Shown one piece after another: positions 1,194 through 6,753 of a DNA stretch of 64,000 bases. Made by a program: the position numbers and the translations under genes. Location of the stretch: assembly GCA_028820655.1 (NCBI GenBank), contig JAPPIK010000040.1:1-64000 (forward strand). The letters are read 5' to 3'. The DNA comes from Candidatus Poribacteria bacterium (lineage in GTDB: Bacteria; Poribacteria; WGA-4E; JAJDTR01). The notes beneath the pieces were generated by a model that searched no databases, was not told the origin of the DNA, and saw only the letters and a program-made list of their open reading frames with translations. How positions within the stretch are numbered: the stretch's first letter is position 1; each line of letters begins with the position of its first letter.

Positions 1194-1616
1194 GTGTCCT
1201 CCTTCTCCTTCTCAGATTCTCTCATGAAGAAAACAATTCCAATTGCCAATCCCGATATTTCTGTAGTATACTGTCAAGGCGGTGGAGTGTCAAGTGAAAA
1301 CTGTGTGAATGTCAACCAAGGGAAATCACGAATTTATGAACACATCGTTCAAGTGTCGAACCAATTCAGTGACACAGTGTGTTACGGACGAACGGGGCTG
1401 AGAATTTCCGTTTGATATTTGGCAATGCATTTGTTATACTTCTCTTCCTGTGCCGTTGTGAGTTCCGACCCTCTTTTGACAATAATTCCCGGAAAAATTT
1501 GAACTGTTAGGATTCGGCGGTTCACAACGGGCGTAGGTCGGCTTGAAGTTCCGTAACCGTACGGATTGTATGGGTGTGGTCATTCTTACACTATTGAAAT
1601 AGAGAGGCATGTAGTA
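1194..1616. other. Intergenic region between divergent genes
   Basis: These 423 bases separate the secreted CBM9-like gene from ftsH and should hold both promoters. A TTGACA occurs at 1477-1482 on the plus strand, but no good -10 box lies at the right distance, so I do not call a promoter. The short reading frames here (for example on the minus strand, overlapping the ftsH start) show no recognisable features. Confidence 0.5.
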
Positions 1617-3542
1617 GTGAGCAAGAACGCTAAAAGTACCTTGGTTTGGGTGGTAATGGCATCGATCTTTGTCCTCGCACTGTCCCAGGTAATCAACCGC
1701 AAAGATCGAGTCCATGAGCTATCTACATCGAGTTTCTACCAGTTGGTGGATAATCGTAAGAAGTTGGTCGAGGAAAGCGGACGGTTAGCCCCGGAGGATG
1801 GAGGCTTGTTTGAGGATGAAGTTATCATCAAAAAGGAATGGATTCAGGGTACGTTCAGCCATCCGCAGGACGTCCAAGCAGAGTTGCGGCAAATGGGTGA
1901 AATTGTTGAGATTGAGGATTGGAATGGACAATTTAAAACGAGCCGAGATCAATTTTCCGAATTCCCGCTTCACCAAACGCTTAAGGAGGCGCAGGTTCGT
2001 TTCGACGTTGATGCGGCATCAAGCGTTCCTCAATGGTTGCTCATCTTTGGAACAACCGTGTTGCCAATTTTGCTGTTTGTCGGCATCATGATTTTTTTCA
2101 TGAGGCAAGTACAGGGCACGGGCAATCGAGCGCTATCATTCGGAAAGAGCCGTGCACGACTTCATTCCGAAGACCAAACCAAAATTACTTTTGCCGACGT
2201 TGCAGGAGTCGATGAGGCGAAGGAAGCGCTTCAGGAAGTGATTGAATTTCTCAAGGATCCCAAGAAATTTCAACGGCTTGGCGGTCGCATTCCCAAAGGC
2301 GTTCTTCTCATGGGACCGCCGGGAACCGGAAAGACGATGTTGGCGCGCGCAGTGGCGGGCGAGGCAAACGTACCTTTTTATAGCATCAGTGGATCAGATT
2401 TCGTCGAGATGTTTGTTGGTGTTGGAGCGTCCCGCGTCCGAGACCTTTTTGAAACGGGCAAGAAGAATGCGCCATGCATCATATTCATTGATGAACTTGA
2501 TGCCGTGGGACGGCATCGCGGGGCGGGAATTGGCGGCGGACACGACGAGCGGGAGCAGACATTAAACCAACTGCTTGTTGAAATGCAAGGTTTCGATACC
2601 TCGGAAGGCGTCATACTGATTGCCGCAACGAATCGTCCAGATGTCTTGGACCCGGCCTTGTTGAGACCGGGACGATTTGACCGCCAAATTGTCGTAGATT
2701 TGCCAGACGTGGGCGGACGGGAGTCTATCCTTAAAGTCCATACAAAGGACCCTTACAAACTTGCCGAAGATGTTGATTTGAACGTGCTTGCAAAGGCAAC
2801 GCCGGGATTTTCGGGCGCAGATATTGAAAACATGGCAAACGAAGCCGCATTACTCGCAGCGAAGCAGGACAAAGACAACATTGACATGAACTGCTTCGAT
2901 GAAGCCAAGGATCGGGTAATGATGGGACCTGAACGACGAAGTTTGGTGATTAGCGATGAGGAAAGGCGGGTAGTAGCCTTCCACGAAGCCGGACACGCGT
3001 TGATGCTGCATTTTGTGCCTGAGAGCGATCCCAACTATAAATGCACGATTGTGCCCCGTGGGCGTGCACTTGGCGTTACGGCAAAATTGCCTCTCGAAGA
3101 GCGCCATAATATGAGCAAGAAACATATCTTGGCACATATTCTATTCGCACTCGGTGGGCGCGTTGCAGAGGAATTAATCTTTGGAGAACAGACAACCGGT
3201 GCTCAAAACGACTTTGAGCAGGCTACGGCTATGGCACGCCGAATGGTTACCCAATGGGGAATGAGCGAGATGGGGCCGCTGACTTTCGGGCGGCGCGATG
3301 AACAGATTTTTCTCGGCAAGGAGTTGGCTCACCATCAAGATTATAGCGAAAAAACGGCGATTGAAATTGATCAGGCGGTACACCGGATTATCATGGAGTG
3401 TTACGAGAAAGCCAGACATCTTCTTGAAACTAATCTTGACGGGCTAAAATCTCTTGCCGATGCACTGCTTGACAAGGAAACGCTTGTCAGCAAAGAGATT
3501 GAAGATATCCTCGGACCGAGACCGCCTGTTCCTATAACTTGA
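1617..3542 (+). CDS. ftsH: ATP-dependent zinc metalloprotease FtsH
   Basis: Membrane-anchored AAA+ protease that unfolds and degrades membrane and regulatory proteins. From the chosen start the product is 641 residues, the usual length. A first membrane helix lies near residues 8-25 and a second near 140-165, with the periplasmic segment between. The AAA module has Walker A GPPGTGKT near 233 and Walker [12 protein letters not shown] with its acidic pair at about 292-293. The M41 peptidase domain has HEAGH at about 456-460 and the third zinc ligand Asp in GAQNDFEQ near 532. The frame is open upstream to a TTG at 1566, but the GTG at 1617 follows a GAGAGG site and puts the first helix at the normal position. 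The stop overlaps the folP start (TGATG), indicating an operon. Confidence 0.97.
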
Positions 3543-4366
3543 TGGACTGCCGCGGGAAGCAACTCACTTTCGGACAGCGCACCCTCATCATGGGCATCTT
3601 GAATGTGACGCCCGATTCATTTTCCGATGGTGGACGCTATAGTGATGTTGCCGCAGCGATCAGCCATGCTAAGGAGATGGTAGAGGATGGAGCCGATGTC
3701 ATTGACATTGGCGGCGAATCTTCTCGGCCGGGGGCTTCGCCAGCGTCCAAAGATGAAGAATTGGCGCGAGTCCTGCCTGTGGTTGAGGGCCTTGCTGGTG
3801 AAATCTCGGTGCCTCTATCAATCGACACGTGTAAAGCGGAGGTTGCTCGACGGGCGATTGAAGCCGGGGCTCATATCGTTAATGACATTACGGCACTCCA
3901 AGGCGATGCCGAGATGGCGAATGTTGTTGCAGGCATGAATACCGGGGTAATCCTGATGCACATGCGCGGTAGCCCGCGGACGATGCAACACTCGCCGGTC
4001 TACGATGATGTCGTGTCAGAAATATCTTCTTGGCTGCTATGCCGTATTCAGTACGCAGAATCAAAAGGAATTCCCCCCGATCACATTGTTATTGACCCCG
4101 GCATCGGCTTTGGTAAAACTGTTGACCATAATTTGGAGATTTTGCGCAGGCTTGAGGAATTTCGTCACTTGGAAAAGCCTATGCTTATCGGTACATCAAG
4201 GAAGTCCTTTATTGGAAAAATCCTTAATCTCCCGGTAAACAATCGTATAGAAGGAACCGCCGCTACCATATCATGGGCAATCGCTCACGGAGCGGACATG
4301 GTTCGTGTCCACGATGTGAAGATTATGCATCGAGTCGTGCGAATGACAGATGTGCTTTACCGCTAG
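3542..4366 (+). CDS. folP: Dihydropteroate synthase
   Basis: Cytoplasmic folate enzyme joining p-aminobenzoate to the pterin pyrophosphate to give dihydropteroate. The 274-residue TIM-barrel protein has the family motifs in order: MGILNVTPDSFSDGG near the N-terminus, DIGGESSRPGA, the pterin-binding DPGIGFGKT and GTSRKSFIG. The ATG at 3542 overlaps the ftsH stop codon; a TTG one codon earlier is in frame but less likely. Coupling of folP to ftsH is a common bacterial arrangement. All expected catalytic motifs are intact. Confidence 0.97.
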   Translation: MDCRGKQLTFGQRTLIMGILNVTPDSFSDGGRYSDVAAAISHAKEMVEDGADVIDIGGESSRPGASPASKDEELARVLPVVEGLAGEISVPLSIDTCKAEVARRAIEAGAHIVNDITALQGDAEMANVVAGMNTGVILMHMRGSPRTMQHSPVYDDVVSEISSWLLCRIQYAESKGIPPDHIVIDPGIGFGKTVDHNLEILRRLEEFRHLEKPMLIGTSRKSFIGKILNLPVNNRIEGTAATISWAIAHGADMVRVHDVKIMHRVVRMTDVLYR

Positions 4367-4463: not shown

Positions 4464-5570
4464 ATGAAAATTCTTCGAGTCACATATCCCGTCTTAATCT
4501 TTGCTGCCTTAACGTGTGGGGTTTCAGCCCAGCAGGTGAATGTTACCGTCCCCGCAACCGTGGACATCTTTCTCAAGCAGTTGGCGCGGTCCGAACATCA
4601 GGGCATGGAAAGCAGTTTTGTCGGTGGGAATATAGGAGCACATGCACTCAACGGTAATCCCGCCGGACTCAGCCTGATTCACGACGATCGATTTTCACTT
4701 TACACGGCTCGCTTTCCCCGAACCATTGCGGTCGTGTCTCATCAAAACGAAACCGAGCGATATGAAGATTATGGCGAATATGACCTCTATGCGTCGGGAG
4801 TTGAGCTTTTGAATTATGCGGCACCGATAAGATCCATCGGCATAATCGGTTTCGATTTTGCCCGTGGGCACGACGGACAGTTCAGCCGTGTAGACTATCT
4901 CGGGAAAGCAACCAACAATTTTCCCCAGAGCGACTGGGCACTTGGTGTTGGATTTAGCAGGAATCTTTTCGCCGGTTTGGCGTTTGGCGTGGATGCCAAA
5001 TGGCTGCGTTCCAAAATTCAATTGCCCGAGAACGAAGAACATGCCGGACACGGTTATGCATACAGTCTTGGATTAAGCCAAAAAATAGGCGAACAGCTTC
5101 GAATTGGCGGGGTAGTCAGAAATCTCAGTAACGGGTTGTCGTTTTCGGACGACACCATCCCTGATCAGATTGAACAAGATGTCCTCGTCGGAGGCGTCTA
5201 CTACCAGCGGCATAGAGATTTAGATTTGAAGCTCAGCCTTGACGCGAATCCTCCGTTCAAAAACGGCGTGCGAGCGAGCCTTGGTGCAGAAATCTGGTAT
5301 ATGGGACGGATTGGGTGCAGAATCGGTTATCTGCGACACACAGAGCACAGATGGCAGCCGGTTCAAATTATCCGGAGCGAAACGCTTCAAATGGAAGAAA
5401 GAATCTGGAAAACCGAGGGGCCAACATTCGGTATCGGCTTCAACCTAGGGCGGGTACGTATAAGTGGTGCATATACGCCTCAAGCAAAACCGACTGCAAA
5501 GGACGGCGAGAGAATTCGCGTGGACCAAGGAGGGGTTGCGTACTATTTTTCGATTGGACAAGGTTCTTGA
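4464..5570 (+). CDS. PorV/PorQ-like outer-membrane beta-barrel protein
   Basis: The 368-residue product has a signal peptide ending near GVSAQQ, then a conserved-looking N-terminal stretch (GAHALNGNPAGLSLI, near residue 55) of the kind seen in PorV/UPF0164-type barrels. After this come alternating strands with aromatic girdle residues, and the protein ends in YYFSIGQ. Members of this group are integral outer-membrane proteins, sometimes shuttle or anchor proteins for type IX secretion. No type IX genes are visible here, so that role is not claimed. It follows folP by 97 bases on the same strand with no obvious terminator. Family call is from pattern, not from a search. Confidence 0.6.
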   Translation: MKILRVTYPVLIFAALTCGVSAQQVNVTVPATVDIFLKQLARSEHQGMESSFVGGNIGAHALNGNPAGLSLIHDDRFSLYTARFPRTIAVVSHQNETERYEDYGEYDLYASGVELLNYAAPIRSIGIIGFDFARGHDGQFSRVDYLGKATNNFPQSDWALGVGFSRNLFAGLAFGVDAKWLRSKIQLPENEEHAGHGYAYSLGLSQKIGEQLRIGGVVRNLSNGLSFSDDTIPDQIEQDVLVGGVYYQRHRDLDLKLSLDANPPFKNGVRASLGAEIWYMGRIGCRIGYLRHTEHRWQPVQIIRSETLQMEERIWKTEGPTFGIGFNLGRVRISGAYTPQAKPTAKDGERIRVDQGGVAYYFSIGQGS

Positions 5571-5673: not shown

Positions 5674-6288
5674 ATGTCGGATCAATACAAAACGGTAGTT
5701 GCCATTGCAGAATCAAAACTGGAAATCAAAAAATCCAGATTCATCTGTTTGGCAACAGCGGTCGAGAGCCAAGACGCCATATCGGATTTCCTAATCCTCG
5801 CCCGGCACAAAAATCCCGATGCATCACACTACTGCTATGCCTACAAGATTAAAACAGGGGGCGAGGTTCGGGAATACGCTACCGATGCCGGGGAACCCAC
5901 TCACTCGGCAGGCCCTCCGATACTCTCCGCGATCAAAGCGGCCAAACTGTCAAATGTCATTTGTGTGGTTGTCCGCTATTATGGTGGAATTAACCTTGGA
6001 GTAGGAGGACTCATCCGTGCGTATGGAGGCTGCGCTCGGAGTTGCCTGTCGAATGCCAACATCGAAACACGAGTCCTATACCAGAGGTTGCGGCTGCGAG
6101 TGTTTCATGGTCAGATCGGCTCCGTCCTCAATCTATGTCGTCGACTCAGGGGAGACATCCTAAATATTGAATTTGATGAGGAGGCTATTGTATATCTGCA
6201 AATTCGTCTGCGCGAGCTAAACACCTTGGAGACGAATCTTCAGCGAATGGCGGTAACAATTGAGACAAGCAGCCTTGCCACAACCTGA
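5674..6288 (+). CDS. YigZ/IMPACT family protein
   Basis: A 204-residue protein with the two-domain layout of the YigZ/IMPACT family: an N-terminal UPF0029 domain and a small C-terminal ferredoxin-like domain. The signature lies near residues 95-115: VVRYYGGINLGVGGLIRAY, preceded by DAGEPTHSAGPPIL. Family members are thought to bind RNA or ribosomes and affect translation, but the biochemical role in bacteria is not settled. It sits 9 bases ahead of the GcvH-like gene on the same strand, so the two are probably co-transcribed. Confidence 0.9.
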   Translation: MSDQYKTVVAIAESKLEIKKSRFICLATAVESQDAISDFLILARHKNPDASHYCYAYKIKTGGEVREYATDAGEPTHSAGPPILSAIKAAKLSNVICVVVRYYGGINLGVGGLIRAYGGCARSCLSNANIETRVLYQRLRLRVFHGQIGSVLNLCRRLRGDILNIEFDEEAIVYLQIRLRELNTLETNLQRMAVTIETSSLATT

Positions 6289-6297
6289 AATGGAGAT

Positions 6298-6753
6298 ATG
6301 AATAGACTCGGGAGGCTAACCTTGAACGAGGTCAAATATACAACTACCCATGAATGGATTGAACTCACAGATAATGAAGGAGTTGTTGGAATCACTGAAC
6401 GTGTGCAACTCATCTACGGGGATATCATCTTCGTAGATTTACCACCCGTTAACGAGGAATTTGAACAAGACGATGTGATCGGTAGAGTCGAAGTTGCGGA
6501 CGGCGATTCGTTTCCCATTCATGCGCCAATAACGGGTGAAATCCGTGCGGTCAACACTGCTCTTGATGACGACCCGTATATCATCAATCGTTCCCCGGAG
6601 GGTGATGGCTGGGTCTGCAAGATGAGTGTCGAAAGTTCAAAAGAACTGGATGAGCTGATGGATGCGAAAGAGTACGATATCTATGAAGAGGAAGAGGCCG
6701 ACGGAGATTTGCTGGAGGAGACGGATTTCTACGATAATGATGAAGATTTTTAA
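6298..6753 (+). CDS. GcvH-like protein lacking the lipoyl-lysine, with acidic tail
   Basis: The protein keeps the glycine-cleavage H-protein fold signature: YTTTHEWIEL, VGITERVQLIYGDIIFVDLP, then HAPITGEI and VNTALDDDPY-IIN with GDGWVCKM. The lipoylation segment, normally VESVKA-SD, here reads VEVADGDSF, placing Asp68 where the modified Lys belongs, so it cannot carry lipoate in the usual way. A very acidic C-terminal extension (about residues 122-151, rich in D/E) is added. Length is 151 residues from ATG 6298; a TTG at 6322 follows a better GGGAGG site at 6310-6315 and may be the true start (143 residues). No gcvT, gcvP or lipoate genes lie nearby. A non-enzymatic or regulatory job is possible but unproven. 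Confidence 0.8.
   Translation: MNRLGRLTLNEVKYTTTHEWIELTDNEGVVGITERVQLIYGDIIFVDLPPVNEEFEQDDVIGRVEVADGDSFPIHAPITGEIRAVNTALDDDPYIINRSPEGDGWVCKMSVESSKELDELMDAKEYDIYEEEEADGDLLEETDFYDNDEDF

Follow-up and report, generated by a model that had tools for sequence, protein, structure and literature searches.

The window, a 64,000-nucleotide stretch of DNA from a Candidatus Poribacteria bacterium, carries on its forward strand a run of genes that opens with a reading frame at 1566..3542, which we take from its sequence to encode an FtsH-like protease. This is followed on the same strand by the gene for dihydropteroate synthase, FolP (3539..4366), a PorV/PorQ-like outer-membrane protein gene (4464..5570; NF033709, 65.1 bits, under the cut-off of 90) and a YigZ/IMPACT gene (5674..6288; UPF0029, 111.5 bits). 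Directly downstream of the YigZ gene, at 6298..6753 and again on the forward strand, lies a reading frame of 151 codons from its ATG, encoding a protein that resembles the glycine-cleavage H-protein GcvH. GcvH is a textbook carrier protein whose known chemistry hangs on a single lysine. The protein in the window is without this lipoyl lysine, and we use the name GcvHL for GcvH-like proteins of this kind. The order FtsH, FolP, PorV-like, (YigZ), GcvHL is widespread, with FtsH first, FolP early and YigZ a frequent rather than a constant member; other neighbours of GcvHL are a methyltransferase gene and MqnD.

Judging from the bases upstream, GcvHL is probably translated from a TTG codon at 6322 rather than from the ATG, because a candidate ribosome-binding site, GGGAGG (6310..6315, forward strand), ends 6 nt 5' of the TTG whereas GGAG lies just 2 nt 5' of the ATG, and because the equivalent of the TTG codon is the first codon in many GcvHL orthologs. 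A scan for promoters and terminators gave nothing above shuffled background, and a search against PHROGs gave no family match for the protein.

Fold, lipoyl site and family-specific residues

Residues 13-130 of the window protein match the Pfam family GCV_H (PF01597) with 98.9 bits (cut-off 22.2). Against the NCBIfam GcvH equivalog TIGR00527 the protein scores 101.1 bits, under the cut-off of 115.85. Some of its relatives match TIGR00527 far better, with E-values down to 7.6e-38, and may be given the name gcvH automatically. The AlphaFold model (mean pLDDT 86.1, pTM 0.78) is of high confidence in the core and of low confidence in the tail. Foldseek placed H-protein chains at its top 22 ranks, and a second structural aligner superposed the model on the bovine H-protein 3klr with a Z of 22.9 and 1.0 Å over 125 residues, non-H-proteins falling at Z 8.2 and below. 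According to the predicted structure, then, GcvHL keeps the complete H-protein fold, in agreement with the sequence-only reading of this DNA, which had found the GcvH fold motifs well kept.

In GcvH the lipoyl lysine is carried on a hairpin. The equivalent hairpin of the window protein spans residues 65-77 (EVADGDSFPIHAP; 6490..6528, forward strand), where VEVADG stands in place of the VESVKA of GcvH, D-G replaces K-A, and Asp68 (Asp68-Gly69, 6499-6504) is aligned with the lipoyl lysine. The hairpin is longer by one residue than that of canonical GcvH, and no other lysine lies within residues 65-76.

Two alignments were used to describe the family. A1 comprises the window gene, which is also locus L004, together with 19 of 29 other loci; it omits L005 and L011, which stop at the start of the match, before the gene, and eight close relatives of rows that were kept. 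A2 comprises the window and 67 loci, drawn partly from the best 80 of 226 relatives in a contig scan across phyla that required conserved peptide patterns; it omits canonical GcvH loci and L151 and L152, which repeat L035 and L041. None of the 68 A2 rows has a lysine at the lipoyl position, which is occupied by D (38 rows), T (18), E (6), N (2), S (2) or A (2), and is directly followed by glycine (Gly69 in the window) in 67 of the 68. The traits common to the GcvHL site are the missing lysine and the following glycine, and aspartate is only one version of it. The earlier description of an Asp at the lipoyl-lysine position is therefore correct for the window and does not extend to the family, while the expectation that the protein is not lipoylated at the usual site is supported in every row, none of the orthologs having kept the lysine. 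We also considered whether another lysine in the loop could take over lipoylation. This was rejected: the window hairpin has none, and only L045 and L139, two of the 68 rows, have one nearby, two residues past the usual site at a position that is not conserved. As controls, the lipoyl lysine was found in each of 26 GcvH sequences belonging to other phyla (L088-L112 and L114, among the scan's best 80 of 226 relatives), in all 24 canonical GcvH representatives and, within ESSK, in all 20 chlamydial GcvH-like loci.

Around the site, Glu65, three residues before the lipoyl position, is kept in 18 of 20 GcvHL representatives and in most rows, so some of the recognition features of GcvH remain. Glu12, Glu14, Ser67, Asp68 and Tyr70 are given for the arm cavity of the E. 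coli H-protein in PMC7733448. In our own alignment, GcvHL retains the glutamate of the HEW motif and does not have the Asp that comes four residues past the lysine. Two further positions set the family apart: Arg35 is found in 18/20 GcvHL representatives vs His or Tyr in 23/24 canonical GcvH, and Glu101, mostly replacing Tyr, in 20/20 vs 4/24.

The protein ends in a tail that begins at Tyr126 (6673..6750, forward strand), 26 residues long, with 14 Asp or Glu and an aromatic last residue, as the proposed acidic C-terminal extension had it. The model predicts a helix to about residue 136 and is of low confidence beyond, and we take the tail to be disordered. Across the 68 rows the tail measures 18-32 residues and is 41-75% acidic (median 52% Asp plus Glu); in 62 of them it contains neither Lys nor Arg.

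Conservation and lipoate metabolism across Poribacteria

To define GcvHL across genomes, we required a match of at least 112 bits to a profile of the 20 members of A1, canonical copies scoring at most 107.5. By this measure 77 of the 84 Poribacteria genomes have GcvHL (the match in G076 is partial), and the profile found none in G009, G014, G019, G032, G045, G067 and G070. In a tree of 62 rows, 30 GcvHL and 32 canonical GcvH sequences are split by a branch with support 100/99, and six canonical GcvH of Poribacteria cluster together on the canonical side of the unrooted tree. The occurrence of GcvHL in ten families argues for an old split from canonical GcvH. Nei-Gojobori dN/dS came to 0.07 when the window gene was compared with its nearest relative; four further pairs gave 0.125, 0.024, 0.043 and 0.146, and in a sixth pair synonymous sites were saturated. 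The tail is also constrained (0.036-0.29 in scorable pairs). GcvHL is thus under strong purifying selection, and a decaying copy would hardly be found phylum-wide, in a single well-supported clade with dN/dS of 0.02-0.15; the sequence-only reading had likewise argued against a pseudogene.

The gene can nevertheless be lost. Both genomes of genus g10 (G045 and G070) show a clean natural deletion: the methyltransferase gene, whose normal place is 3' of GcvHL, comes directly after YigZ. Some 70 bases separate the two reading frames in G045 (L178:8303-8375; L179:7421-7463 in G070). It was therefore dispensable in this one genus. The G045 locus also holds, between FolP and an AcpS-like gene, a reading frame (L178:4727-5962) that is presumably TnpB-like, going by its sequence.

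GcvHL does not take the place of an ordinary H-protein in the window's genome. A search for a canonical gcvH elsewhere found one (ESVKA) at C15, between gcvT and gcvP. A weak GCV_H match at C13 (21.4 bits) is most likely the lipoyl domain of a 2-oxoacid dehydrogenase E2 enzyme, since the 444-residue frame around it contains an E2 domain as well. The YigZ gene of the window is the only one in this genome. GcvHL itself never adjoins gcv genes in the loci examined, which upholds its placement outside the glycine-cleavage genes. Most of the phylum has the pathway: GcvP was found in 75 of the 84 genomes and LipA above its cut-off (310 bits) in 72.

The families searched genome-wide were GcvP, GCV_H, LipA, LplA/LipB and the E2 catalytic domain, with LipS1/LipS2 and GcvT outside the search. 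In G061 (95% complete), G066 (91%) and G068 (95%), GcvHL is the sole GCV_H match: there is no GcvP and no canonical GcvH, the LipA-family matches are weak only (E 2.9e-4; 30 and 32 bits; cut-off 310), and neither LplA/LipB nor a 2-oxoacid-dehydrogenase E2 catalytic domain was found, the last two in a search of 11 genomes. The less complete G060 (76%) has the same absences. GcvHL is also kept in G058 and G059, which lack GcvP and canonical GcvH but do have LipA, E2 and a ligase or transferase. In metagenome assemblies that are 91-95% complete, single absences may be gaps; such gaps hardly account for five families missing jointly from three genomes that belong to two taxonomic families. Because GcvHL is kept in these three genomes, its function appears to need neither lipoate nor glycine cleavage, and we are highly confident that it is lipoate-independent. 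A lipoyl role is made very unlikely by three things together: what stands at the site, the lack of the pathway in these genomes, and the selection on the gene.

The same searches gave some observations on glycine cleavage in the phylum. GcvP frames (PF02347) are about 450-473 residues long in families f6-f8 (G062-G069) vs about 960-1010 in most genomes of the order that includes the window's, so that split and single-chain P-proteins occur within one phylum. G069 has five GCV_H matches, one of them within a 254-residue frame. In G065 and G069, GcvP, canonical GcvH and LipA are present and no 2-oxoacid dehydrogenase E2 domain was detected.

Proposed role and rival explanations

What, then, might an H-protein do without its cofactor? 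GcvHL is, in our judgement, rather likely to be an ancient cofactor-free H-protein paralogue that works by binding a partner protein. Partner binding is the most likely role because the protein lacks both an attachment site and a conserved nucleophile, and because it is small and soluble, with conserved family-specific residues and an acidic tail. Since the chemistry is lost, we favour with similar confidence a binding or adaptor mechanism over a different chemistry. GcvH inserts the tip of its hairpin into partner enzymes. GcvHL would bind its partner in the cytoplasm through a contact surface formed by the hairpin tip, the adjoining altered Arg35 and Glu101, and the acidic tail, and no covalent lipoyl arm would take part.

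Several other explanations were weighed against this. GcvHL might be an unmodifiable decoy or regulator that tunes GcvP, GcvT, LipA or lipoate ligases by binding them as GcvH does. The complete predicted fold, the retention of Glu65 in most representatives and the coexistence of a canonical glycine cleavage system in most genomes would all suit such a role. However, GcvHL never lies beside gcv genes in the loci examined, it is kept in G058 and G059 where GcvP and canonical GcvH are missing, and it is kept in G061, G066 and G068 without detected targets (GcvT being outside the family search). Because genomes without glycine cleavage and lipoylation targets keep the protein, a decoy can hardly be its general role, and we regard this explanation as unlikely overall, although acting on glycine cleavage or lipoylation is possible for GcvHL where these exist.

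Carrying is what the H-protein fold is made for, and GcvHL might still do so by other chemistry, as a thiol carrier that uses Cys107, say, or with a cofactor attached to some other residue. Cys107 lies in a conserved PEGDGWIC stretch and is present in 56 of the 68 rows. In the remaining 12, however, it is replaced by Phe, Leu, Ala, Val or Ile, including in rows from lipoate-free genomes, and no nucleophile is invariant in the hairpin across the 68 rows. Such a carrier therefore seems quite improbable.

A functional tie to the IMPACT-family gene next door had also been suggested, and the two genes could form a module, for instance one that controls stress or translation. Of the 67 loci examined, 63 have at least 1.5 kb of upstream sequence. 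Going upstream from GcvHL in these, the first recognised gene is YigZ in 41 loci and a member of the PorV/PorQ family in 19; three loci have neither. The genes in the window share a frame and are 9 nt apart after the stop. Against this, co-occurrence across the phylum is loose (YigZ in 50/77 genomes with GcvHL vs 4/7 without), 27 of the 77 genomes with GcvHL have no YigZ, genus g10 has YigZ without GcvHL, the two lie on separate contigs in G061, and in two loci (L061:3750-3962 and L068:3819-3974) only short pieces of YigZ adjoin an intact GcvHL, which suggests decay of YigZ in some lineages. The proposed tie thus found no support, and we consider a two-gene module very improbable. The PorV/PorQ-like gene, which is next beyond YigZ in the YigZ loci, is the steadier upstream neighbour, and in family f5 (G060 and G061) GcvHL stands apart from both; gene order is here a loose guide to function. 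As a separate observation, readthrough of the YigZ TGA in the window (6286-6300, the TGA plus 9 nt before the GcvHL frame) would join the two proteins into a YigZ-H-like fusion.

Finally, the loss of the functional lysine could point to a decaying gcvH duplicate, a recent pseudogene or a sequencing or assembly artefact, which the occurrence in 77 of 84 genomes, the monophyly, the low dN/dS and the conserved tail effectively rule out.

We return to partner binding as the preferred role. From gene order, a weak guess would be that the partner is a product of the FtsH-FolP-PorV neighbourhood. Tentatively, and with rather less confidence than in partner binding itself, we suggest that Poribacteria turned an H-protein into a cofactor-free binder of a new functional class, with the former swinging-arm hairpin as its recognition tip; the partner would be non-metabolic and might act in an envelope process whose genes lie with the PorV/PorQ-like one. 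If this is true, the H-protein fold gains a functional class that is inherited phylum-wide and has outlived lipoate metabolism. GcvHL represents a natural separation of the H-fold from its cofactor, by which cofactor-free roles of H-proteins become directly testable. It also carries a warning, as automatic annotation that calls it gcvH implies a glycine cleavage system in genomes where none was found.

Comparison with known relatives of the H-protein

In our literature search, no paper turned up that describes a bacterial GcvH family without the lysine, or GcvH in Poribacteria. The closest comparison is with GcvH itself (PF01597, TIGR00527), with which GcvHL shares the complete predicted fold, the HEW motif, the P-x-x-G-E turn and the N-x-x-P-E-G-x-G-W segment. 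Unlike GcvH, it has no lipoyl lysine, a longer hairpin with a D-G or similar turn, an acidic tail and a place outside the gcv operon.

The chlamydial not_gcvH proteins (TIGR03077) are also divergent H-like proteins, and the name of the model itself states that they are not GcvH. They were considered because their genes would adjoin an IMPACT-family gene. A search with the window YigZ over about 1.5 kb on each side of the chlamydial loci gave no match, where a diverged or remoter copy is possible. The window GcvHL scores 50.8 bits against the model (cut-off 144.05), and the chlamydial loci, as noted above, keep their lysine. We therefore rejected this group as the family of GcvHL, as there is no YigZ match nearby and all loci keep the lysine. 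GcvH-L of Streptococcus pyogenes is lipoylated and encoded in an operon with sirtuin and macrodomain genes (SirTM/macrodomain-linked). Its structure (5a35) shares the H-protein fold with GcvHL at Z 16.2, and ordinary GcvH is nearer (Z 18.9-22.9).

That the H-protein family can be repurposed is illustrated by Simiate/ABITRAM (FAM206A), which PMC3859600 describes as an H-protein relative of about 20% identity with other roles, found in eukaryotes only; we liken it to GcvHL by description only. LbpA of sHdr sulfur oxidation is a GcvH paralogue with a role outside glycine cleavage, and PMC6067878 reports the lysine in all 95 aligned LbpA and two conserved Cys in most. Against the nearest model to LbpA (NF045810, GcvH_rel_desulf), the window GcvHL reaches 29.5 bits vs a cut-off of 150. 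Unlike GcvHL, the paralogues of GcvH known to have other roles, LbpA among them, keep the lysine.
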